In this document: one piece after another, positions 29,836-49,327 of the stretch | Position numbering within the stretch: the stretch's first letter is position 1 | Layout: each line of letters opens with the position of its first letter | Virus record (IMG/VR): IMGVR_UViG_3300042691_041916 | Coordinates: 1 to 53,026 of that record | Length of the DNA: 53,026 nucleotides | Direction: 5' to 3' (one strand) | Source of the DNA: a virus | Notes under the pieces: model-generated | Database searches by the model: none | Told to the model about the DNA's origin: nothing | What the model saw: the letters and a program-made list of their open reading frames with translations, nothing else | Translations under genes and position numbers: made by a program

Positions 29836-30981
29836 TTAAGTATGGCTTAAGGATCCACAGGCTAACGCCGCTCGCCCAGCGGCTAAAACATTCTTAGCTG
29901 CGTTAACATCCCTATCTAATAGGGTTCCGCAGTTTTGACACTCCCAGCTTCTTTCGCTAAGAGTTAATTTTTCAGATTTTCTGGAATTACAAACGTTGCA
30001 AACTTGGCTGCTGGGGTAGAAACGGTCAATTTTAACAACCGTTCTTCCATACCACTCAGCTTTATACTCCAACTGTCTTGTAAACTCATACCAGCTTGCA
30101 TCGTAGATAGACTTTCTTAAACCTTTACTGGCGTTTTTAACCATCTCGGTAACACAGAGGTCTTCAACAAAAATCGTTTGGTTTTCACGAATCAATGTTG
30201 TTGACAATTTGTGTAAAAAGTCCAGTCTGCAGTTTACTATGTCTTCATGAACCTTAGCAACTTTTCTTTTTTGTTTTAGATAGTTCCTACTACCTTTTTG
30301 TTTCCTACTAAGCCTCCTTTGTTCCTTAGCTAATTTATGCTGAAACTTCCTATAGAACCTAGGGTTCTCAACCTTAAAACCCTTGTCGGTAGTAAGATAG
30401 GTTTGTAAACCCAAATCTAAACCTACGGAGTTTTTACAATGTGGGAGTTTCTGAAGCTCAGGCCCTTTAAACTTAAGGGAAACAAACCACCTCCCACTAC
30501 CTTTACGGGTAATTGTGATGGATGATGGTTCTAAACCTTCGGGTAAAGGACGGGAGTAAACAACAGGCAAAGGGTCTTTGACCTTAGCAATGTAAAGCTC
30601 CTTCCCTTTAAAACTAAAGGCGTTTTTAGTCAGGGTTATACCGTGAGACTTCCATTTCTTTTTAAAGTTAGGAAACCTGGCAAAACCCTTGAAAAAGTTT
30701 TTGAAAGCTCTATCAAGGTGTAAAATCGTCTGTTGTAAACCAACAGAAGAAACATCAAGTAGGAAAAAGAAATTAGCATCCTTTTTCCAAGCGGTTAGCT
30801 TTTTACTAACCGTGTTAACATTCCACTTAGCTTTCTTATCTACTTTCCTTGCTTCTGTATGCTCAAACAAAGCCTTGTTGTAAACAAACCTAGAGCACCC
30901 AAGCGCTTGAACCAGGAACGCTTCCTGCTCCAACGTTGGGTAGAACCTGTATTTGTAAGAGAAAAGACGTTGTTTGCTCAT
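29836..30981 (-). CDS. tnpB: TnpB RNA-guided nuclease (IS200/IS605, IS1341-like)
   Basis: 381 residues, full length. RuvC-like catalytic residues are visible: D189 in SVGLDLGLQT, E273 in FVEDLCVTEM and the aspartates in LLDRDVNAAKN (356/358). A zinc ribbon CNVCNSRKSEKL...WECQNCG precedes the last motif. N-terminal YRFYPTLEQEAFLVQALGCS is typical. By family knowledge TnpB uses an RNA made from its own 3' region plus the flanking DNA as guide. No TnpA is present, so movement would depend on one supplied elsewhere. Confidence 0.95.
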   Translation of the reverse strand: MSKQRLFSYKYRFYPTLEQEAFLVQALGCSRFVYNKALFEHTEARKVDKKAKWNVNTVSKKLTAWKKDANFFFLLDVSSVGLQQTILHLDRAFKNFFKGFARFPNFKKKWKSHGITLTKNAFSFKGKELYIAKVKDPLPVVYSRPLPEGLEPSSITITRKGSGRWFVSLKFKGPELQKLPHCKNSVGLDLGLQTYLTTDKGFKVENPRFYRKFQHKLAKEQRRLSRKQKGSRNYLKQKRKVAKVHEDIVNCRLDFLHKLSTTLIRENQTIFVEDLCVTEMVKNASKGLRKSIYDASWYEFTRQLEYKAEWYGRTVVKIDRFYPSSQVCNVCNSRKSEKLTLSERSWECQNCGTLLDRDVNAAKNVLAAGRAALACGSLSHT

Positions 30982-35669: not shown

Positions 35670-38600
35670 TTAGCCGTTAGCACCCCAGGGGATGCAACGC
35701 TTGATTGCTTCTACATAGTCTGAGGCCTCACCACTAGCAACCATTCTCATGGCCTTCTCATGGGGGTCAAGATCGTCGTCCTCAGGGTCTTGGAACTTCG
35801 TATTGGCGACAACCTCCCCGAAGTAAACCATGTTAGGCAATCTTTCTAGGATAGAGAACAAGGTGGTGGTAGCAGATTCGCCCTCGGCAAATTCCAGAGT
35901 TCCAAATTCAAGACCTTCGCAATAATTTTGCAACTTGCTTTGGGGGATTACACCGTCGGTAAGTTTGCCTTCGATATAAAGATTTTCCACAAACTCAGCA
36001 ATTTTATTCTTGCGAGCCCTAATCTTTTGCCCTTCGTACTCCTTCTTGAGACGGTCATTTTCCTCCTTAAGGGCCTTAAGTTCCTCAAACATTGCTGTGG
36101 GGTAACCCATAGCCTTGGCTTGGCCAAGAGAGCCCATTCCGCAGAATTCTTCTGTTTCCTTATAACCCTCTTCGATTTCCTCTTCCTCAACTAATACAGG
36201 AGATTTCTGACCGTAGGTAGAACCTTTGCCAGTTTTGGTCATTGGGGTTTTTGCCTTTTCCTTGTGATCAAGGGTAGGAGCATCGCCGGACTTTTGCCTT
36301 ACAATGCGTACTTTCTTGCTCTGTGTGGCATCTTCAAGATCAACAGCCATTTCCAGATTGTCAGGATCTTCCTCAGACTTATCGGGGAATTCCGTAGGAC
36401 CATCATTTCTGCCCATAGGATCCTTCTTACGGGATACCTTAGCGGAGGCAGGTTCGCGGGTTAAACCGTCGGCTTCGCCCTCAGCATAATCAGCTTCTTT
36501 AGCCTCATTCTGAATTTTCTGTCCTTTGACAAAGGCTCTTTTCTCCCCTGCCTTTTGATACACTACTCTGACATCACCACTTTGCTTAACATTCTTCAAC
36601 GGAGTGACAATTTCCTCATTAGAAGGCTCCTCTTCCATCAAAGTAGACACTTTGGTAGGACCTCCGTCTCTGCCATGTGGATCTTTTCCGTCAGAAACCC
36701 CAGGCTTATTAGCTTCAGGGATCCCTTCATCGCTATCATCAAACTGATCGTTGTTCATAGCACGGGAGGCTCCACCAGGCTGCTCAGCCCAACGATCCTC
36801 GGAATCAGCCTTAGCAGTTCTCACCCTATCGGCATCTTGCTCAGAGTGCTTAGAGGTTTTCACCCTATCAGCTTCCTGCTTGCCGTTATCGTCAATGACC
36901 CCTTCCCTATCCTCGGCATGGGATTTTGCCGCAACTTGACGGCTTTCCATGTCATCTTTGCCCTTACCTTTCTCACCCCTACCTGTAGCATCTCCACCTT
37001 TCTCCGAATGGGTGCCAAATGATACCTTGCCATCTTTTGTCACCTTGTGGCCAACACCTTCAGCATGGCTAACTGCATCGGCATGATCGGGGATTTCACC
37101 ACCCTTAAGCGGAGCCCTTCTATCACCGGACCCCTGGTGGAGGACTCTAACGGTTTTATTACCCTTGGTGCTCTTTAAGTCTACGACAAATTCCTCATTG
37201 GAAGGATTTTCTTCCATCAGAGTGGAAACTTTAGTGGGACCGCCATCTCTGCCATGAGGCTCATTGCCATCTGACACCCCAGGCTTAGACCTTTCGGGCA
37301 AACCTTTTTCACCAATATCATACTGATCGGCATTCATCGCCCTCTCCTTGCCATTTTGCTCAGCCCAACGGCTTTCTGCATCCGTGTTCTCCTGGTCGGA
37401 AGCCTTAGCAAGCTTTTCTCTACTTGTATCCTGCTCATTGCTCTTAGAAGTTTTAACCCTCTTATCATCCTGCTCTCCTGAATCATCAGAGGTCATTTCC
37501 CTACCGTCAGCCTCACCCTTGCCGACAGACTGGCGGGCGGCATAACCATCGTCTTCCGATCTCCCAGTAGAACCTCTGCCAGCAGGATTCCCCAGGTCTT
37601 TCTCAGCGTGATGGCCAAATGTTGCCTTACCGTCTTTAACTTTTTTGTCTCCAGACCCCTCAGCAAACATGTCCTCATCGTCTTCCTCAGACAGATAGTC
37701 ATCTTCCTCGTTAGACATGTCAGACTTTTTAGCCTTTTGCTTCATTCTCTTTTCCTTAAACTCCTCACCCTCTTCGTCCATTCCATCCATCATGGCAGAC
37801 TTTTTAGATTTTTTCTTAACAGGGGGGGCTTCCTCAACAGCCTCTTCACCTTCCAAGGACATTCCAGCTGGAACCTTCCCATCCTCCTTAAACTCTTCCA
37901 TTTCTTCCTCATCGCCCTCCTCGACGATAACCGGCTTATGGCTCTTTTTCTTTTTGCCCATTTCCTCATAAACCTGTTCAACAACTTGGACTTCCTGCCC
38001 ATGAGCACCCTTGGAAACTTTCCGGGTCACTCCCTCTTCAAACTCTTCCATAACTTCCTCCTCGGAAACCTCCATTTTGTCTTTTTTGTGAGCTTTTTCT
38101 TTGTGAACTTGCTCCACTACTTGCACTTCCTGACCATGAGCACCTTTGGAAGTTTTCCGGGTCATACCGTCCTCAGCAAATTGATCCTCTACCTCCTCGG
38201 CAATTTCTAAAATTTCCTCAGGACTTGTTTTCTTAACCTTTTTTCCACCATTTTCTTCAAAAACTTCCTCAACAACTTGCACATTATGGCCATGGGCACC
38301 TTGAGCCTTAACCCTCTTAATCCCCTCTTCATAGGAATCAGATGGCATCATTGTCTCCAAATTGGCTAACTTTTGAGACGCCTCAGAGACCTTTTTCTTA
38401 AGTTCGGCAAATTGTGGGGCAGTCATTTCAGGTGCTTGGGGAGCTTCCTCTTGTCCAACATCAACTTGACTCTGTGCATTTTGATTTTTTTCCAAATCTT
38501 TTAGAGAATCTGAGATTTCGCCTCTGATTTCGTCGAGACGTTCCTTAAGAAGTTCTAACGGGCTTTTTTCTTGAATCATGGTAGGGCCTAGGTCTGTGTC

Positions 38601-39062
38601 AAAAATATTTTCAGGGGTTAAGGCAGTAGCATAGTCATACACCCCTTCTTTCTCAGAGAAAGAGAAAGGCTCCAGACCTTTTACGGCCGGTGGAGATGCA
38701 CCTAAAAGGGCAAGGTGCCTGGCGCTCCACTGTCCTTTATGCGGGTTTATAGGGGAGGATGGGGAATAGAATGAAATTGATACCTTTCTATAGTGACCGT
38801 CCTTAACAAGATCCTTGGCTACATCGGTAAAGTTGACATCAGCATAAAGGTCATCACCCTTTCTCACAAATTGTTTGATCCAACCGTAGGAGGGAGCACT
38901 GTCATTGTCACCGGAGTGGCCGATAACAAGGGGAGCTTCATGGGTTTGGGGATCATAGGACTTTACAACCTCATCCAAATCCCTAGGGGTAAATTCCCTC
39001 TCGATTCCCTGAGCAGAGGTCTGAGCACCAGCTTTAAATACGTGAAGACGTTTTGTAAACAC
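35670..39062 (-). CDS. Mu gpI-like prohead protease/scaffold with a very long repetitive insert
   Basis: 1130 residues from a GTG at 39062. Residues 1-150 (FKAGAQTSAQGIEREFTPRD, APLVIGHSGDNDSAPSYGW, VSISFYSPSSP, HLALLGASPPAVKGLEPF) are the Mu I-type protease domain. Residues about 980-1130 (ELKALKEENDRLKKEYEGQK and after) are the coiled scaffold part. Between them lie some 750 low-complexity residues: three copies of a GAHGQEVQVVEQV unit (about 255-370), acidic/Lys blocks (370-470), and two copies plus a partial third of a unit of about 200 residues (KDGKATFGHHAEK at 474; KDGKVSFGTHSEK at 674; GRNDGPTEFPDK near 887). Usual members are 300-400 residues. Confidence 0.85.
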   Translation of the reverse strand: MFTKRLHVFKAGAQTSAQGIEREFTPRDLDEVVKSYDPQTHEAPLVIGHSGDNDSAPSYGWIKQFVRKGDDLYADVNFTDVAKDLVKDGHYRKVSISFYSPSSPINPHKGQWSARHLALLGASPPAVKGLEPFSFSEKEGVYDYATALTPENIFDTDLGPTMIQEKSPLELLKERLDEIRGEISDSLKDLEKNQNAQSQVDVGQEEAPQAPEMTAPQFAELKKKVSEASQKLANLETMMPSDSYEEGIKRVKAQGAHGHNVQVVEEVFEENGGKKVKKTSPEEILEIAEEVEDQFAEDGMTRKTSKGAHGQEVQVVEQVHKEKAHKKDKMEVSEEEVMEEFEEGVTRKVSKGAHGQEVQVVEQVYEEMGKKKKSHKPVIVEEGDEEEMEEFKEDGKVPAGMSLEGEEAVEEAPPVKKKSKKSAMMDGMDEEGEEFKEKRMKQKAKKSDMSNEEDDYLSEEDDEDMFAEGSGDKKVKDGKATFGHHAEKDLGNPAGRGSTGRSEDDGYAARQSVGKGEADGREMTSDDSGEQDDKRVKTSKSNEQDTSREKLAKASDQENTDAESRWAEQNGKERAMNADQYDIGEKGLPERSKPGVSDGNEPHGRDGGPTKVSTLMEENPSNEEFVVDLKSTKGNKTVRVLHQGSGDRRAPLKGGEIPDHADAVSHAEGVGHKVTKDGKVSFGTHSEKGGDATGRGEKGKGKDDMESRQVAAKSHAEDREGVIDDNGKQEADRVKTSKHSEQDADRVRTAKADSEDRWAEQPGGASRAMNNDQFDDSDEGIPEANKPGVSDGKDPHGRDGGPTKVSTLMEEEPSNEEIVTPLKNVKQSGDVRVVYQKAGEKRAFVKGQKIQNEAKEADYAEGEADGLTREPASAKVSRKKDPMGRNDGPTEFPDKSEEDPDNLEMAVDLEDATQSKKVRIVRQKSGDAPTLDHKEKAKTPMTKTGKGSTYGQKSPVLVEEEEIEEGYKETEEFCGMGSLGQAKAMGYPTAMFEELKALKEENDRLKKEYEGQKIRARKNKIAEFVENLYIEGKLTDGVIPQSKLQNYCEGLEFGTLEFAEGESATTTLFSILERLPNMVYFGEVVANTKFQDPEDDDLDPHEKAMRMVASGEASDYVEAIKRCIPWGANG

Positions 39063-39112: not shown

Positions 39113-40978
39113 TCATTTTTTAGACTTTTTCCCCTTCTTCCCCTTCTTTTTTGTGGGAATTTCTTCCAAGGGTTCCCCCTCAGCTATCCTGTCAATTTCC
39201 TCATCGGTTAGTATGCCTTCCTCTGCCGGGGTTTCCTCTTCGGGGGCAACCTTAGGTGTTTCCTCCGCAGGTGAAACCTCGGGAGTTTCTTCAGTGGGGG
39301 CAACCTCAGGTGTTTCCTCTACTGGAGCCTCCTCAGTAGGGGCAACCTCAGGTGTTTCCTCCGCAGGTGAAACCTCAGGAGTTTCTTCAGTGGGGGCAAC
39401 CTCAGGTGTTTCCTCTACTGAAGCCTCCTCTGGAGTTTCCTCTACCGGAGTTTCTTCAGGGTTCTCCTCAGCAGGAATTTCCCCCTCTGGGGCAACCTCG
39501 GCAGGTGTTTCCTCAGGGGCAACCTCTGGGGTAGCCTCTTCTGGGGCAACTTCGGGAGTTTCCTCTACCGGAGCTTCCTCTGGGGTTTCTTCAGTAGGGG
39601 CAACTTCGGGAGTTTCCTCAGTAGGAGCCCCCTCCGTAGGGTTCTCCCCTCCAGATGCTTCCTCGGGGCCAAAAATAGATTCATACAAATCTTTATCCTT
39701 CTCAGGGTCAAACTTAGTATTCCCCTCCTCCTCTTGCCCACCAGGCTTATATTCTGGGGGTTCTTCCTCAAGGTCAACTCTGAAATGCCTCTCAACCCAC
39801 TCCCTCTTGGGCTTGAACCCTTGCTGCATCAACATGCTAACGTCGGAAACTGTTAACTGTGATTCCTCAATTCTAAATTCTCTTTTTAGGGTGGGGGCAG
39901 CTACATCGACCCCGAAGTTAAGATCCACGACCCAACGTACTAAAGTACGTGTTAAGGTCTGGGAGATAATTTCGGAAAGTTCCGATGCCTTTACCACTCT
40001 AACTACGTTGGCAACTTGGGAGGATGCTCTGGAACCAGACTCTGCTTGTCCGGCCTCATTTTCCCCACAGATAAGCAAACTGATCTCCCTATCAATGTAG
40101 TCGATCAGGTTTTTGAAAACGTCGGGGTTGCCCGTAGGGTTTACAAAATCTAGCTTAAAACCCTCCGGAAGGACAAGGGCAGTTTCTTGGGAAAGGTTGG
40201 AGATGTGGTCGTAAATCTTGTCAACTTCCGCAGTAGATGCGCTTAAGGGGGCTGTTGCTACTACCGTAGGGGTGGCATAACGGTCGCCATAAAGCACATA
40301 GGATTCTATGGCCCTGCGTCTGAATTTTACTAAGGGGTATAGGACTCGGCCTAAGGCGGCACCGTAGGGGTCACCATTATGGAAAGCCCAATGGCGGTTG
40401 ACGATGAATTTTCTGGACGGCAGCTCAATACCTTCAAACATTCTGTTGAAGGTCAGGCAACGCATGGTAAAACCCGTCTGAGATTCTTCATTTTCCTGGA
40501 AGACGAATCTTCTCTGATCTCTCATGCGAATGTCATACGGGATGACGCCACGCTTAGTCTTTTTCCACATGACTTCGCCTACGCTAAAGCCAATGACTAA
40601 TGCTTCGCATAGTCCCTTATAAATTTCATCTAGGGGCAATTCTTCTAAGACTTCGGCCAAATAGTCCCTTACTGCTAAGTCGCCGGGCTTTTGGCTATAT
40701 TCCTCGATGTACCAGGGGCGTGACGTTATTTCCTGAACTAGCTTTGAGAACGAGGCTTGAACATGTTCGTCAAAGAGCAGTCGTTGATAGACGGAAATGG
40801 CCCGGTTGCCGCCTTTGGAGATAAGGAGGTCGTCGCTTGGGCGGACTATAGTGGAACCTGCTCCGGTGAAGGGGGAACTACTTCCGAAGAGAAAAAGTGC
40901 TGATAAATTATAAGGATCACTTACATACGAGCTAACCTCACCAGTAGGAACAGGAGCTGTCTTAAATCTTTGGGCCAT
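39113..40978 (-). CDS. Mu gp29-like portal protein (DUF935 type) with P/E/T-rich tail
   Basis: 621 residues. Residues 1-430 match the Mu-type portal family (NRAISVYQRLLFDEHVQASF, WYIEEYSQKPGD, VIGFSVGEVMWKK, HRWAFHNGDPYGAALGRVLY-like segment, LLICGENEAGQAESGSRASS). From about 440 to 605 the protein is a repeat of Glu/Pro/Thr units (EETPEVAP, EETPEEAP), then a lysine-rich end (KKKGKKGKKSKK). The tail is unusual for a portal. The ATG overlaps the stop of the homing endonuclease above. Confidence 0.85.
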   Translation of the reverse strand: MAQRFKTAPVPTGEVSSYVSDPYNLSALFLFGSSSPFTGAGSTIVRPSDDLLISKGGNRAISVYQRLLFDEHVQASFSKLVQEITSRPWYIEEYSQKPGDLAVRDYLAEVLEELPLDEIYKGLCEALVIGFSVGEVMWKKTKRGVIPYDIRMRDQRRFVFQENEESQTGFTMRCLTFNRMFEGIELPSRKFIVNRHWAFHNGDPYGAALGRVLYPLVKFRRRAIESYVLYGDRYATPTVVATAPLSASTAEVDKIYDHISNLSQETALVLPEGFKLDFVNPTGNPDVFKNLIDYIDREISLLICGENEAGQAESGSRASSQVANVVRVVKASELSEIISQTLTRTLVRWVVDLNFGVDVAAPTLKREFRIEESQLTVSDVSMLMQQGFKPKREWVERHFRVDLEEEPPEYKPGGQEEEGNTKFDPEKDKDLYESIFGPEEASGGENPTEGAPTEETPEVAPTEETPEEAPVEETPEVAPEEATPEVAPEETPAEVAPEGEIPAEENPEETPVEETPEEASVEETPEVAPTEETPEVSPAEETPEVAPTEEAPVEETPEVAPTEETPEVSPAEETPKVAPEEETPAEEGILTDEEIDRIAEGEPLEEIPTKKKGKKGKKSKK

Positions 40979-41880
40979 TATTCCTCCCTTTGGTGCTTAC
41001 GTAAATGTTGATTCAAATTCCCAATCCCCCCTCTAATCTCCTTACCACATACCTCACAAGTTAACATCGGTATGCCAGCCCTGGCCTCAGATAAAGCCTT
41101 CTTGTGCCCCTCCGTAAATTTCCTCCCTCTTTGAGCTTCAGATATTTTCTTCCCTACTGAAGGATCTCTCTTCCCATACTTCTTCCCTCTATGGTAATCA
41201 CCACACCTTAACCTTTCCTCTTCACTCATAGTCTTCCCCCTTCTCCATTCAGGGCCAGGACACTCCACGCTGTAGGTGTTATTTACTCCGTCAGTCCAAG
41301 AAACTTTCCCCTCAGCACTATACTTCCTCCCAGACACCCAACCCTCACCAGGACAAGTTTTAGACCTTGTTTCAACTTCCCCATTAGTCCACCATACACT
41401 TCCAGACCCGCTTTCACTCATTTTTCTAGCTTGCTCTGGACTTACGGATCTTCCCTCCCACCATCCTTTTCCTGGGCACTCCATAGCCACAGTGTTTCTC
41501 TCCCCGTTAGTCCACCAAACGTAAAGCTTCCCTTTTACCCACCCTACCCCAGGACAAGTAAATGACATAGTATGTTCAACTCCGTTATTCCACCAAAACA
41601 TTCCTTCACAGGAAGGAGGACTTATAGCATTTGGATTAGAATTATAGCACCATTCCGTGCCGTAGTAAAAGTCCAGATAAAACTGTTCCTCACTACGATC
41701 CTCCAACCCATCATCTTCACTTACCAGCCAAAAGAAGTTTTCAGGATTTTTTCTCAAAGAGCGGTGAAACTCCGGGTTCATATCAGACCATAGGTGCTGT
41801 TTATACCTACGCCCAAAGTCAGTGGTACTACCAACCTGAAACCTTTTACTGGTTAAATTTATGGCAAAATACGTAAACAC
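40978..41880 (-). CDS. GIY-YIG homing endonuclease with WW-NG repeats and zinc finger
   Basis: 300 residues. Residues 1-75 form a GIY-YIG domain (TYFAINLTSKRFQVGSTTDF, GRRYKQHL; the GIY and YIG positions are YFA and FQVG). Residues 90-215 contain four copies of W-x-N/D-G...CPG-x-GW-x-x-G. Residues 215-270 are NUMOD3-like (GDYHRGKKYGKRDPSVG, KISEAQRGRKFTEGHKKALS). The end (LTCEVCGKEIRGGIGNLNQH) is a C2H2 zinc finger. A stand-alone homing endonuclease inserted between gp25 and portal genes. Confidence 0.85.
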   Translation of the reverse strand: MFTYFAINLTSKRFQVGSTTDFGRRYKQHLWSDMNPEFHRSLRKNPENFFWLVSEDDGLEDRSEEQFYLDFYYGTEWCYNSNPNAISPPSCEGMFWWNNGVEHTMSFTCPGVGWVKGKLYVWWTNGERNTVAMECPGKGWWEGRSVSPEQARKMSESGSGSVWWTNGEVETRSKTCPGEGWVSGRKYSAEGKVSWTDGVNNTYSVECPGPEWRRGKTMSEEERLRCGDYHRGKKYGKRDPSVGKKISEAQRGRKFTEGHKKALSEARAGIPMLTCEVCGKEIRGGIGNLNQHLRKHQREE

Positions 41881-42688: not shown

Positions 42689-42720
42689 ATTGCCCTTGTA
42701 GGAAACCCCTAAAGGGCAAT
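42689..42720 (-). promoter_or_regulatory. Hairpin directly after the sheath gene
   Basis: ATTGCCCTT and AAGGGCAAT form a perfect 9-bp stem with a 14-nt loop starting at the sheath stop. No U-run follows, so it is more likely an RNA processing or stability element than a full terminator. Confidence 0.6.
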
Positions 42721-45700
42721 CACCCTAGGCCTTGAGATTCAAGCTCTCTGCTCATTTGCCCCACAGACACTCTGATAAGGTCAACTTCGATGCGCTCCAG
42801 TGTGGGAACCGGAACATCAAACACCTTAACATAGATTAAACCATTTTCCAAATTATCGGGGGTGTTGATACGATTATCGCAGATGATCTGGAACGCATCC
42901 GAAGGACGAGCCCCGTAAAGAACACCGGCAATCCATAATTGACTCAACACGCTGTTTCCAATGGAAACGATTTGGTTGAAGATAACATCGAATCCATCAA
43001 TGACGGAGAAAATTTGGTTATCAAAGGCATTCCTCAGTGATCCGTAAACCACGTTCTGAATAACTCTGACGTTCACAAATTGGAACTTGCGTTGATCGGC
43101 AACAGCTTTGTTGATTCTGGTGCGACCACCCCAGATGAACACCGCAGTATCGGGATAACCGGGCAGGGTTCTCACGGCGTTACAACCATCTGGATTCAGC
43201 AGATTTTGCTGAGCAGAGTTGATTGCGATTTGTGTAGAAACAGCATCGGCAAGTTGATACTTGACGCCAGCCGGTGGGAACTGGAACCCTTCTGCTCTGT
43301 AGCGGCGAATTGCCACCCCAGTCACATAAGGTGATGGTGGGATGTATTGACCGGAAGCATTAAGGATGTAAGATCCGTAGAAAGCAATGAAACCAAAAGC
43401 ATTGAAGTAGTTTTGGCTATCTGCGAATAGACGATTGACATTGTCCACACCAGCTTCGATGAATACCGCCTGTGGCTCGCCATTGAATCCAACGCCCCTA
43501 AGAGCATTGTCAATGATTTCGGTAGATGTGATGGCATCAAACCTCCACAGATTGCTGGGAGGGGTTTGTTCGGGGGTCAAGGTCATTTCGACTTGGGCAC
43601 CGTAGCAAACGTGAGCAATAGCGCTCATGTCGCCATCGCCTGAAACCACCGTATCCACATCGATAGAGAAGTTTGTGCCACCCCCTAACAGGGCATCATC
43701 AACAGTAAGGGTCTCCCCTGCAGTGTAACTAAATCCACCATCAGTCAGGGTTACAGAGGTAACAGAGTTTCCTGACACTACAATGGTAGCCAAGGCACCA
43801 TAACCTGCCACAGAGCCTAAGAGAGGGATGCTAGTGTAGGTTCCGTTAGAATAACCAGAACCACCAACCAAAGTTCCATTGTCTAGGGACTTAATCGTTT
43901 TAGCACCAACTGGGGCCACAACTACCCAATTATAGTTGGCGCCATCAAAGACAACTGCCATCCTATCTCCCTCTGCCACAGATTGGTTACCGTCTGGTGT
44001 CAAACCAGAGGAAGTGGCAAGGAAATAAACACCGTCGAGCATGTCGACAACGTTTTGAATGTCCACGTCGCTATCGCCAGCGGACAACCCTACGCTTTGA
44101 GTGTAAAGGGATACGGTGTCTAAGGTGGTGCCAGCAGCATCGTAATCACCACCATAAATGGCTTCGATGGAAGGAACCATGTAAGCATCGGTGGCGAACC
44201 TTTGCTGAACAACGGGGGCACAAACATAGTTATCTACGTCTGTGTTGGCATTTCCATAGTTAGGAAGATCCAGTTTAGGCAACCATCCGGCGTTCACAGT
44301 TTCCCCGTAAGGGAAAATTTGCTCTTCGCCAAGCACAACCGCACTGTTATTCAGGTAGATTGACATTTCAGGGTGACCCGAAGTGTCAACTACATCCCCA
44401 ACGATAAGCTGGAATCCCGTACCGCCAACGGCTGCTGAGGTTAGGATATCTCCAGGAGTGTAACCTGACCCAAAGGAGGTGAATGTTACTGATGAGACGG
44501 AGTTAGAAGTTACAACCAAGGTAGCTTTGGCACCTGAACCTGTACCCCCTGTAAGAGAAGCATTGGTATAATTACCATTTGTGCAACCTGTGCCGTTAAC
44601 CTTTAAAACGTCAATAGAGAAGTTTGAGCCAGCGGGAAGCTGAGTGGTGGTTAAAGTTTCACCGACAGCGTAGGAATGACCCCTGGTTGTAATGGTTACC
44701 GTGGTCACTGAACCCCCTGCAACTACAACAGTTGCTTTAGCTCCCGTTCCATCAATACTGCCATTTAATACAACGTTTGTGTATGTGCCGTCAGTATAAC
44801 CTGAGCCGGCAACAAGAGAAGTAATGTCTAAGGATGCGATGGCATTTTGCTTGAAAGTTAAGATGTAACCTTCAGCGTAGGAAGCTTGGGCATTGTTGAA
44901 GATGTTACCACTGGCAAATCCATACTTTCTGCCACGAATCATCGGAACCGTGGAAAGTTCAGCGAGGTTCAAAGCAGTTAGCTCCCCTCCCAACACTTTA
45001 GAATAAAGGATGGATGGGGTCGTGGTTGTAATAGCACCGGGATACTTGACAAAGTTCGCTGCTAAGTAATTAGCAGAGGAAGACGCCAGCAAGAAGCTAT
45101 CGTTGGTTATTACCTTTACAAAGTAAGGGTTGGTGCCATTGACGGACGTACCCTTGAATAACACCGTAGAATTTCTCAAAATAGGCTGAGTGAAGAACAC
45201 TTGCTGCCCATTTTTCAACCCGTGACCTTCACAAGCAAACAAGCAATTGTTGCTACCTGATAGGGCATAAGAGGTTATAGCTAGGCTGGGGTTGTAGAAC
45301 GTACGGCTAACAAACCCGAGACGATACTCCTTAGTAGGATCCTGAAGGGTGCCCGGAAGGTGCACCGTGTTAACATACTGATTGGCACCAGTGATGTTTT
45401 GAATCAGGTTTGAGGATTGACCGTTGATTTCGACCTGATCAATCAAGTCCCAAGCAGGGGTACCATAGGTGATAGAAGCTGTGCTACCTGTTGGACCGCC
45501 CACGTCAAAAGCATCAGCAGGAGTGGCGACCATGTTGGAAGTGCCACCAGCCGCCAAAACTTCGTTATAAACACTGGATGCCGCCGTAGCAGTCTCAGCA
45601 ATGTAAACAACTTGATTGGTGCCGTTGGATGGGTAAGGCCCGTAAAGACCTTCATTGAACGGTGGAGCAACGATGTAAACTTTGGCAGATGCCTCTCCGT

Positions 45701-47081
45701 TCAGGAGCGGGTCAAAGTCGGTGCCTGCATCAGACAAGGTAACTTCCATAATCTGGAAGTCAGCGGGCCAAATCGCAGATGAGCTAAGTATAAATTTGCC
45801 AAGGTTTGCTTGACCAATTACAGAAGCCAAAGTGAAAACAGCAGGGTCTAGAGCACCTACCTTCTCATCAATCGCAACAGGTTCCACAGATTGCTGAACA
45901 GCGACCTTAGGGTTAGAACCTGCGATAATTGCCTGGTATTGAAGTTTATCGTAGGTTACATCCACCCCGGCCCACTCATAGATAGCATTATCTACGAGGT
46001 ACTTCATGCCGGTGATTAAATCCTCGGCAGGAAGGTGAGGCGTAAAGTCGCTATACTTGTTAACGTCGGTGACAAGGAACGGGCCGGGATCAGCCAGTGC
46101 CATCCACTTGAAGTTGTTATCTTGGCAATGTGCAGCAGCGGCAGCGCCTACGGCCGATCTACCAGCCTCATCAAACTGTGCGTAAGCAGTAGGGGTAACA
46201 AGATAACCTTGGTTGATTTGACCGTCGAAAGCAGTGTTGATGCACTGAATGTAGTCCTGAGGAACTCTTACCAGGCTATTTTCTAAACCGACGATGTTTT
46301 GAACATCATAGCAGTTGTTCATCAGCACCGAGATGGAACCCACAGGGTTCTGCTGAGTAACTACTGATACAGTGCCGTCATAGGTGGCAGCAGCGATGCT
46401 GATAAAGCCGTTTTCGGAGTTGGAAGTTGGCTCCACATCGTTAACCAGCCCGTAATCCCTAACATAGATGGAACTTCTGACACTGGGGTTGCTCTCGATA
46501 GCTTCAGCGATAGCGGTAGAAATTGCCTTAGCGATTTTCCTATTATTTACTACATCCCCTGGAATATAATCTACGGGGATTGTCACAGGGACACCCAACC
46601 ATTCCCCAGATGATGTGTAACCAGTAGAGCCATTGCCAGCTACGAGCTTAAGCCCATTGAGCACCAACTGAGCGTAAACCACATCACCTGCTTCCAGATT
46701 GGAAGGCAAACCTGAATTGTTAATCTTAGTGCCCGACGACACAATCTCAATTTCAACAATTTGGTTAGGGGTTCCCACCCTTACAACCCTTAGATCACCA
46801 ATCTGAGCATTTTGGAAAAATGCGTTGACGCAGTTGTAGCTAAGTAGAGGGATTCTAGAGCTGGGGACGATGCCGCCAACCAAAGCCCTATAATCGGCAA
46901 GTGAGGTTACGGCTACCGGACTGTTGAAGGGGAAAGTAGCAACTGAAACAGATTCCTCCGCTTCTACCAGCATGTAAACCGTGTTAAATGAGGCGATACC
47001 AGCAGAAGCTACGTTTCCTACTGATTCGTTAATGTAAGTACCGGGTGCTCCAGGAGCAGACCCAAAAGAAAAAGTTGCCAT
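42720..47081 (-). CDS. Tail sheath protein, enlarged by repeat domains
   Basis: 1453 residues, two to three times the usual sheath length. N-terminus FGSAPGAPGTYINESVGNVA and the C-terminal 250 residues (GCNAVRTLPGYPDTAVFIWG, GRTRINKAVADQRKFQFVNV, LERIEVDLIRVSVGQM) are clear contractile-sheath signatures. The middle has three repeats (near residues 755-830, 830-905 and 1070-1150) with the pattern Y-x-N/D-GTYT, G-x-GA-x-ATVVV, GYTxGETLT, a beta domain seen in phage surface proteins. The inserts probably decorate the outside of the tail. Confidence 0.9.
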   Translation of the reverse strand: MATFSFGSAPGAPGTYINESVGNVASAGIASFNTVYMLVEAEESVSVATFPFNSPVAVTSLADYRALVGGIVPSSRIPLLSYNCVNAFFQNAQIGDLRVVRVGTPNQIVEIEIVSSGTKINNSGLPSNLEAGDVVYAQLVLNGLKLVAGNGSTGYTSSGEWLGVPVTIPVDYIPGDVVNNRKIAKAISTAIAEAIESNPSVRSSIYVRDYGLVNDVEPTSNSENGFISIAAATYDGTVSVVTQQNPVGSISVLMNNCYDVQNIVGLENSLVRVPQDYIQCINTAFDGQINQGYLVTPTAYAQFDEAGRSAVGAAAAAHCQDNNFKWMALADPGPFLVTDVNKYSDFTPHLPAEDLITGMKYLVDNAIYEWAGVDVTYDKLQYQAIIAGSNPKVAVQQSVEPVAIDEKVGALDPAVFTLASVIGQANLGKFILSSSAIWPADFQIMEVTLSDAGTDFDPLLNGEASAKVYIVAPPFNEGLYGPYPSNGTNQVVYIAETATAASSVYNEVLAAGGTSNMVATPADAFDVGGPTGSTASITYGTPAWDLIDQVEINGQSSNLIQNITGANQYVNTVHLPGTLQDPTKEYRLGFVSRTFYNPSLAITSYALSGSNNCLFACEGHGLKNGQQVFFTQPILRNSTVLFKGTSVNGTNPYFVKVITNDSFLLASSSANYLAANFVKYPGAITTTTPSILYSKVLGGELTALNLAELSTVPMIRGRKYGFASGNIFNNAQASYAEGYILTFKQNAIASLDITSLVAGSGYTDGTYTNVVLNGSIDGTGAKATVVVAGGSVTTVTITTRGHSYAVGETLTTTQLPAGSNFSIDVLKVNGTGCTNGNYTNASLTGGTGSGAKATLVVTSNSVSSVTFTSFGSGYTPGDILTSAAVGGTGFQLIVGDVVDTSGHPEMSIYLNNSAVVLGEEQIFPYGETVNAGWLPKLDLPNYGNANTDVDNYVCAPVVQQRFATDAYMVPSIEAIYGGDYDAAGTTLDTVSLYTQSVGLSAGDSDVDIQNVVDMLDGVYFLATSSGLTPDGNQSVAEGDRMAVVFDGANYNWVVVAPVGAKTIKSLDNGTLVGGSGYSNGTYTSIPLLGSVAGYGALATIVVSGNSVTSVTLTDGGFSYTAGETLTVDDALLGGGTNFSIDVDTVVSGDGDMSAIAHVCYGAQVEMTLTPEQTPPSNLWRFDAITSTEIIDNALRGVGFNGEPQAVFIEAGVDNVNRLFADSQNYFNAFGFIAFYGSYILNASGQYIPPSPYVTGVAIRRYRAEGFQFPPAGVKYQLADAVSTQIAINSAQQNLLNPDGCNAVRTLPGYPDTAVFIWGGRTRINKAVADQRKFQFVNVRVIQNVVYGSLRNAFDNQIFSVIDGFDVIFNQIVSIGNSVLSQLWIAGVLYGARPSDAFQIICDNRINTPDNLENGLIYVKVFDVPVPTLERIEVDLIRVSVGQMSRELESQGLG

Positions 47082-48186: not shown

Positions 48187-48585
48187 TTATCTGAGAATGT
48201 TTTCTAAGGCAATTTCTGCCAATGTGTCCAACGATCTGAGGGGGACGCCCATCCAAGGTCTTGCGGGCATCTTTTCAGTACCGAACTGATTATAAATACC
48301 TGCGTCAGTGGTTCTTACAAAGAACTGACTCCCCCTTACAAAGATCGAACTTTGATCCAGCATCTCTCCTGAAATTCTTAGTTCAGGTAAATTGCCGTAG
48401 CGCTCTGCCTTCCACTTAGCATATGAGGGAGATAGTGACTTCCAAGGTTTGCCCTCATCATCAACTTGGCGAGACCAGTTTTCCCTATTGTCTAACCAAA
48501 GGTGAGGCACCCATTCCTTTTTAGTAGGAGTCCACCAATTTTTATTAAGGGGCTTAGGTTTGCTTTCAAAACTAAGAATGGGCAT
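48187..48585 (-). CDS. Mu gpG-like phage virion morphogenesis (tail completion) protein
   Basis: 132 residues. WSRQVDDEGKPWKSLSPSYA, LRISGEMLDQSSIFV and YNQFGTEKMPARPWMGVPL match the Mu gpG/P2 gpS-type family that finishes tails or joins them to heads. It overlaps the end of the chaperone extension (stop/start at 48585). Confidence 0.8.
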   Translation of the reverse strand: MPILSFESKPKPLNKNWWTPTKKEWVPHLWLDNRENWSRQVDDEGKPWKSLSPSYAKWKAERYGNLPELRISGEMLDQSSIFVRGSQFFVRTTDAGIYNQFGTEKMPARPWMGVPLRSLDTLAEIALENILR

Positions 48586-49018
48586 TACTTCTTCCTCCGG
48601 GAAGATTTTTTCAGTTCAGCCTCTTGCTGTTCTCCGTGCTTCTTGACAATGTCAATCATTAGTTTTACCTTGCTCATTGGCTGAGTTTCCAACCAATCTA
48701 CAGATTGATCCCACCTCTGCTTGCAAAGATGGAAAGAGATTTCCATCCAATTTTCAACAGTTAGGATACTATCAGAGAAGACATTATCCATGATCCATTC
48801 TGTTAGTGACCTAAAAACGTAAGAAGGCACTACTTCTAAAATTTCAAGGTTTTGGATTAATCTCTTGAGCAAAGGGACAAAACTTCTCTTTTCGTTACGG
48901 AGGATTTGGGCTAGGTAGAAATCTTTTGGGGTGATTTCTCTAATGTGGAAAGGCCCCCAATCATCGAAAGTAACAAGATAAGAGAAGTCTTCTAAATCTT
49001 TAACCTTTACTTTGGGTT
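48585..49018 (-). CDS. Tail assembly chaperone, T part reached by -1 frameshift (GT product)
   Basis: The frame has no good start of its own but is open from the slippery site: KEPKVKVKDLEDFSYLVTFD, HIREITPKDFYLAQILRNEK, and on to LKKSSRRKK. Joined by a -1 slip at GGGAAAG (49019-49025) it extends the chaperone at 49007-49327 to a fusion of about 247 residues, as lambda gpG is extended to gpGT. A TTG at 48872 could only make a truncated version. Confidence 0.8.
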
Positions 49019-49327
49019 CTTTCCCTCCACTTCATCCCCATTGGCTCTGGCAATAAGGTCAGAGATTTTCTTAATGTCTCTAACACCGAGGGACTCCACC
49101 TCGTCGTAGGACAATTTACTATCTCCCACATTGAGCAATTCAATAACATGGAAACTCCTTTTGGTTTCTCCCATGTCAGCCAGCTCCTCTTCAATATAAA
49201 CAAGGTCTTTACCCGTCATTTCCCTGATGGTGACTACCCTGCCATCCCTCAAGGTATCGCTAAAAGTATCTAAAGAAGTGGTAGGTACTTTAATCGAAGC
49301 AAGTTGATTTTCTGTAACAGTTTTCAT
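49007..49327 (-). CDS. Tail assembly chaperone, G part
   Basis: 106 residues (LRDGRVVTIREMTGKDLVYI, SYDEVESLGVRDIKKISDLI), matching the small tail assembly chaperones that precede the tape measure gene in myo- and siphophages. Its last codons are GAG GGA AAG AAC CCA AAG TAA, holding two heptamers that fit X-XXY-YYZ: GGGAAAG (the lambda site) and CCCAAAG right before the stop. The tape measure gene itself is not next to it and may lie outside the window. Confidence 0.85.
   Translation of the reverse strand: MKTVTENQLASIKVPTTSLDTFSDTLRDGRVVTIREMTGKDLVYIEEELADMGETKRSFHVIELLNVGDSKLSYDEVESLGVRDIKKISDLIARANGDEVEGKNPK
49010..49025 (-). promoter_or_regulatory. Tandem -1 ribosomal frameshift sites
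   Basis: GGGAAAG (49019-49025) and CCCAAAG (49010-49016), both in the correct zero-frame phase. The -1 frame is open for 144 codons after the first site. Confidence 0.8.

Follow-up and report, generated by a model that had tools for sequence, protein, structure and literature searches.

A conserved CCCAAAN slippery site and a predicted −1 frameshift in the tail assembly chaperone genes of a cyanophage lineage

Results

Layout of the chaperone locus

The window analyzed here is a 53 kb virus record (53,026 nt, IMG/VR record IMGVR_UViG_3300042691_041916), a fragment that comes without a completeness estimate. We conclude, with a probability of roughly 0.9, that its tail assembly chaperone gene, G, undergoes a programmed −1 frameshift of the lambda G/GT type at the heptamer CCCAAAG, the predicted products being a G–T fusion and G alone. 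The features of the locus are collected in Table 1. On the minus strand, the 3′ end of G reads ...GTG GAG GGA AAG AAC CCA AAG TAA, confirming the initial annotation, which had described a G-type chaperone ending in GGGAAAG and then CCCAAAG before its stop. The two heptamers start 9 nt apart, and each has the X_XXY_YYZ phasing needed for a −1 shift. The −1 frame stays open for 148 codons between stops (49031 to 48585), and T has no ATG, GTG or TTG before the TTG that forms its codon 48, counted from the heptamer; the frame is thus long and lacks a start near its beginning, as had been claimed. The ATG of the tail completion gene overlaps the stop of T (TAATG), and G is preceded on its 5′ side by two small ORFs and the gene for a family A DNA polymerase. 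This enzyme shares 56% identity with its counterpart in the Synechococcus phage S-CBWM1, which makes the window phage a likely cyanophage.

Table 1 Features of the chaperone locus in the window
Feature	Position	Strand	Basis
G, tail assembly chaperone, 106 aa, zero-frame product	49007–49327	−	ORF; PF10109 Phage_TAC_7
CCCAAAG, conserved −1 slippery heptamer, abuts TAA	49010–49016	−	In-register CCCAAA[C/A/G] in 65/65 non-redundant lineages
GGGAAAG, second in-register heptamer, window only, candidate	49019–49025	−	Missing from every other lineage
GGAGG, Shine-Dalgarno-like, candidate stimulator, 7 nt 5′ of CCCAAAG	49024–49028	−	Anti-SD duplex energy
TAA, stop of G	49007–49009	−	Sequence
T extension, −1 frame, 143 codons from CCC, then TAA	48585–49016	−	Start-free for first 47 codons; AlphaFold2 mean pLDDT 90.3
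Next gene, tail completion/Neck1 protein	48187–48585	−	PHROG 26, E = 5.5e-10; PF05069, E = 0.00097

In the proposed mechanism, ribosomes translating G would reach C_CCA_AAG directly 5′ of the TAA, where a fraction would slip back one base, enter the −1 frame and complete a G–T fusion of ~248 residues, and the remaining ribosomes would terminate to give G alone. By analogy with lambda, GT would be the minority product; G would coat the tape measure protein, the T part of GT would recruit tail-tube subunits, and both G and GT would leave the finished tail. The GGAGG element, 7 nt ahead of CCCAAAG, may stimulate the slip in the window phage, and the overlapping, non-conserved GGGAAAG may add some shifting there. 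The predicted junction would read ...VEGKEPKVK after a slip at GGGAAAG and ...VEGKNPKVK after one at CCCAAAG.

Conservation of the slippery site

Relatives (IMG/VR loci similar to T or to G, plus S-CBWM1) were gathered by protein similarity, and the site was then placed by looking for CCCAAA near the stop; 128 loci carry it, corresponding to 65 non-redundant lineages at 90% identity. In −1 frameshifts of the lambda G/GT kind, the first ORF has an in-register XXXYYYZ close to its end; here this is conserved as CCCAAA[C/A/G] in 65/65 lineages, S-CBWM1 included (53 CCCAAAC, 10 CCCAAAA and 2 CCCAAAG). A separate listing of any canonical heptamer, in which CCCAAA was not required, gave the same outcome with zero exceptions. 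The G stop directly follows the heptamer in 62 of the 65 lineages, with one codon between them in the other three. The Pro codon of the heptamer is CCA without exception; the codon before it (GAC, AAC, TTC, AGC, GGC or TCC) varies in the residue encoded (D, N, S, F or G) and is constant in its final C. Given the codon usage, and with only the Pro assumed conserved, the chance of such a fit is ~9% per lineage, a value that cannot validly be multiplied over lineages because they share ancestry, although their divergence is nonetheless large.

The T sequences of the relatives are 34 to 61% identical to that of the window and align from the first residue of T, at the heptamer; upstream of this point the T frame runs into stops, whose distance varies. 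The conservation, the frame, the absent start and the family assignment described below are concordant with the chaperone −1 frameshift and predicted G–T fusion that the initial annotation had proposed. C_CCA_AAG is highly shift-prone in Escherichia coli (PMC5009743). The form found in most relatives is C_CCA_AAC, which counts against frameshifting, since, among A_AAA_AAN heptamers assayed in E. coli, AAC as the second codon made slipping less frequent than AAG did (PMC5009743).

On a tree of the 65 lineages, the early branches mostly carry CCCAAAA or CCCAAAG (Lys codon) and a large nested group carries almost only CCCAAAC (Asn codon), so that the A-site codon changed within one conserved site.

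The second heptamer and candidate stimulators

The initial annotation had suggested that two heptamers in a row could raise or tune the G:GT ratio. In this reading both would be active and set the ratio jointly, with ribosomes that fail to slip at GGGAAAG given a second chance at CCCAAAG. Both heptamers do lie in the productive register and in the open interval, and GGGAAAG is the slippery site of lambda G/GT. The chance of a second heptamer at the window's own 5 productive positions is ~0.5%, and closer to 2% if the rate at which heptamers occur in the window's long ORFs (19 in 4941 positions) is applied; heptamers of both types are highly prone to shifting in E. coli (PMC5009743). However, GGGAAAG was not found in the other 64 non-redundant lineages, and the 441 other in-register positions in the productive interval across the 65 lineages hold 1 heptamer match, against 0.45 expected by chance. 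The pattern of a tandem site, in which the second heptamer is kept by selection, is therefore not seen: as only CCCAAAN is conserved and GGGAAAG is a single, window-only occurrence, CCCAAAN is the site that matters. Moreover, the GGG of GGGAAAG is part of the Shine-Dalgarno-like GGAGG and so may have an alternative reason to be there. We consider joint tuning doubtful and the tandem design unsupported, although GGGAAAG could still work, G_GGA_AAG being shift-prone in E. coli (PMC5009743).

The exact double sequence was also considered as a conserved feature and rejected, as a scan of IMG/VR returned 23 loci, all unrelated. At the end of G in three relatives (L085, L086 and L089) the sequence is AAAAACCCAAAATAG, in which AAACCCA forms a further in-register heptamer that shares bases with the conserved CCCAAAA, a partly doubled arrangement; L085 and L086 have a strong Shine-Dalgarno-like GGAGG upstream as well.

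The anti-SD duplex of the window GGAGG has a calculated energy of −9.8 kcal/mol; within G genes, 0.16% of background positions are as strong. Elements at or below −8 kcal/mol are present in 8/65 lineages, compared with 1.9% of background positions, and those of L085, L086, L109, L159, L117 and L016 are similar to that of the window. Downstream folding with z < −3 occurs in 31% of lineages, compared with 4% of background; the window itself does not show an unusually stable downstream fold, and no covariation was found in downstream helices across the relatives. A single conserved downstream stem was rejected, since RNAalifold returned no pairs and a GGACC/GGTCC helix candidate was without covariation; the GGACC/GGTCC pattern may reflect protein coding. 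The Shine-Dalgarno-like element and downstream structure have a rank correlation of −0.40, but a trade-off between them was also set aside, as the association weakens to p = 0.08 by independent contrasts, with at most 5 independent pairs, once kinship is allowed for. A search of Rfam gave a single sub-threshold match on the opposite strand, which was taken as chance.

Separate translation of T and the cyanophage relatives

T could instead be a separate protein, its translation coupled to that of G and beginning at the G stop or close to it with no frameshift, and two cases among the relatives lend this some weight. The S-TIM5 protein gp148 is homologous to T (hmmsearch E = 9e-15, TM 0.79) and, like T, follows a G-type gene (gp147); unlike in the window, it lies in the +1 frame relative to G and its own ATG overlaps the gp147 stop. 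S-TIM5 and about 20 marine relatives start T at such an overlap without a heptamer: none was found at the G–T junction of S-TIM5 or of 21 related loci, and in 21/21 of the latter T is in the +1 frame with its start ≤14 nt from the G stop. A G–T fusion is thus not universal, as this marine clade gives T its own start and lacks the heptamer. The S-TIM5 T was also sought after the DNA polymerase gene and was not located there. The second case is S-CBWM1, whose gp79 and gp80 are homologous to G and T, with CCCAAAA directly before the stop and with the same neighbors (DNA polymerase upstream, tail completion downstream). Unlike the window, S-CBWM1 has an ATG overlapping the stop (CCCAAAATGA) besides CCCAAAA, which is the start annotated for gp80, so its T could also be made alone.

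Against coupling, the first ATG, GTG or TTG of the window T lies beyond its conserved N-terminal part, and 57 of the 65 lineages have no canonical start within the first 10 codons after the heptamer, whereas the heptamer is kept in all. The conserved second ORF in the −1 frame thus lacks a start of its own in the window and in these 57 lineages, and we regard coupling without frameshifting as highly improbable. One-base errors can imitate such overlaps, but a sequencing or assembly indel in what is really one continuous ORF is refuted by the same arrangement in the 128 loci (65 non-redundant), which come from independent samples and include the cultured S-CBWM1 genome.

The site is unannotated in S-CBWM1, the one cultured member of the lineage, where gp79 and gp80 appear as two separate hypothetical proteins; the analysis corrects this gene model. 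In a literature search of open-access papers, no report of tail-gene frameshifting in this cyanophage lineage was found, and the predicted frameshift adds a conserved, apparently unannotated recoding site to a widespread lineage. T genes that are frameshifted, doubly equipped or separately started provide a natural test of why tail chaperones frameshift.

Identity of G and T

Compared alone with PF10109 (Phage_TAC_7), the window G gives E = 0.014 and misses the cut-off; 30 of 31 members of the G family match Phage_TAC_7 (best E = 2.1e-6), and the tail-chaperone identity given to G in the initial annotation holds. T had no clear family, and a collection of bacterial and archaeal genomes yielded no relative of it. 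The confident AlphaFold2 model of T comprises three strands followed by helices, and matches the S-CBWM1 protein with a TM of 0.83 and the S-TIM5 protein with a TM of 0.79. The T fold had no match in the PDB at E ≤ 0.001 and a best Z of 3.5 with VIA, to unrelated enzymes, neither of which carries weight as evidence of absence. G modeled alone was poor (pLDDT 58).

Comparison of the all-G with the all-T profile gave a probability of 94% and E = 9.6e-8 (a single-comparison E-value) over 67 columns, with reversed controls at ≤7.6%, and the G profile alone detects the S-TIM5 T at E = 1.9e-4 (again for a single comparison). From these matches, T probably includes a G domain that has diverged, with a helical extension after it. 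In one proposal, which we hold to be evenly balanced, T arose from duplication of G, the frameshift would link two copies of a single chaperone domain, and the family has switched between a frameshift (window clade), an overlapping start (S-TIM5 clade) and possibly both (S-CBWM1); were this true, the need for a covalent G–T link in tail assembly would become directly testable.

Position of the tape measure gene

With the S-CBWM1 tape measure as the query, nothing was found in the window. The initial annotation had noted that no tape measure gene follows the extension, which is correct, the next gene being that for tail completion; its description of this as unusual does not stand. In S-CBWM1 the annotated tape measure (90321–94568), which matches PHROG 167 (tail length tape measure protein) with E = 1.9e-5, is 42 kb beyond the chaperone, and in five large relatives a homologue, identified by a short match in two cases and by a weak one in one case, lies ~61 to 69 kb from G. 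As the window is a fragment and the relatives keep the gene 42 to 69 kb away, its absence next to T is ordinary here. The pair is therefore not directly upstream of a tape measure gene, which bears on its usual position and not on the mechanism.

Comparison with known systems

The lambda G/GT mechanism is widely conserved in long-tailed phages, T4 excepted (PMC5009743). The window shares with lambda a small chaperone ORF with a start-less −1 extension, and an XXXYYYZ heptamer near the end of G. It differs in that the conserved site is CCCAAA[C/A/G] and abuts the stop, the extension looks like another G domain, the pair adjoins DNA polymerase and tail completion genes with the tape measure 42 to 69 kb off, and the gene set is that of a contractile tail. 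P2 gpE/E+E′ and Mu gp41 belong to the same Pfam family as G (Phage_TAC_7, PF10109) and come from phages with a sheath; the window portal is also of the Mu type. Presumably the window site differs from these two in its slippery sequence, its longer extension and the lack of an adjoining tape measure gene.

Other genes in the window

Several further genes of the window, all on the minus strand, deserve mention. The tail sheath protein (42720–47081) has 1453 residues, much above the usual length; its C-terminal end matches sheath proteins and its middle matches virion, fiber and baseplate families. The Mu-type portal (39113–40978; PF06074, E = 2.5e-71) has a long Pro/Glu/Thr-rich repeat tail and is followed by a 1130-residue acidic repetitive protein (35670–39062), without a Pfam match, in the position of the S-CBWM1 head maturation protease. 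Between the baseplate and portal genes is a probable GIY-YIG homing endonuclease (40978–41880) with repeated WWTNG-type motifs, whose match to PF01541 (E = 1.8e-4) falls slightly short of the cut-off. A TnpB/IS605 OrfB-type protein is encoded at 29836–30981 (PF01385, E = 4.6e-28; Cas12f1-like TNB domain, E = 4.9e-25).
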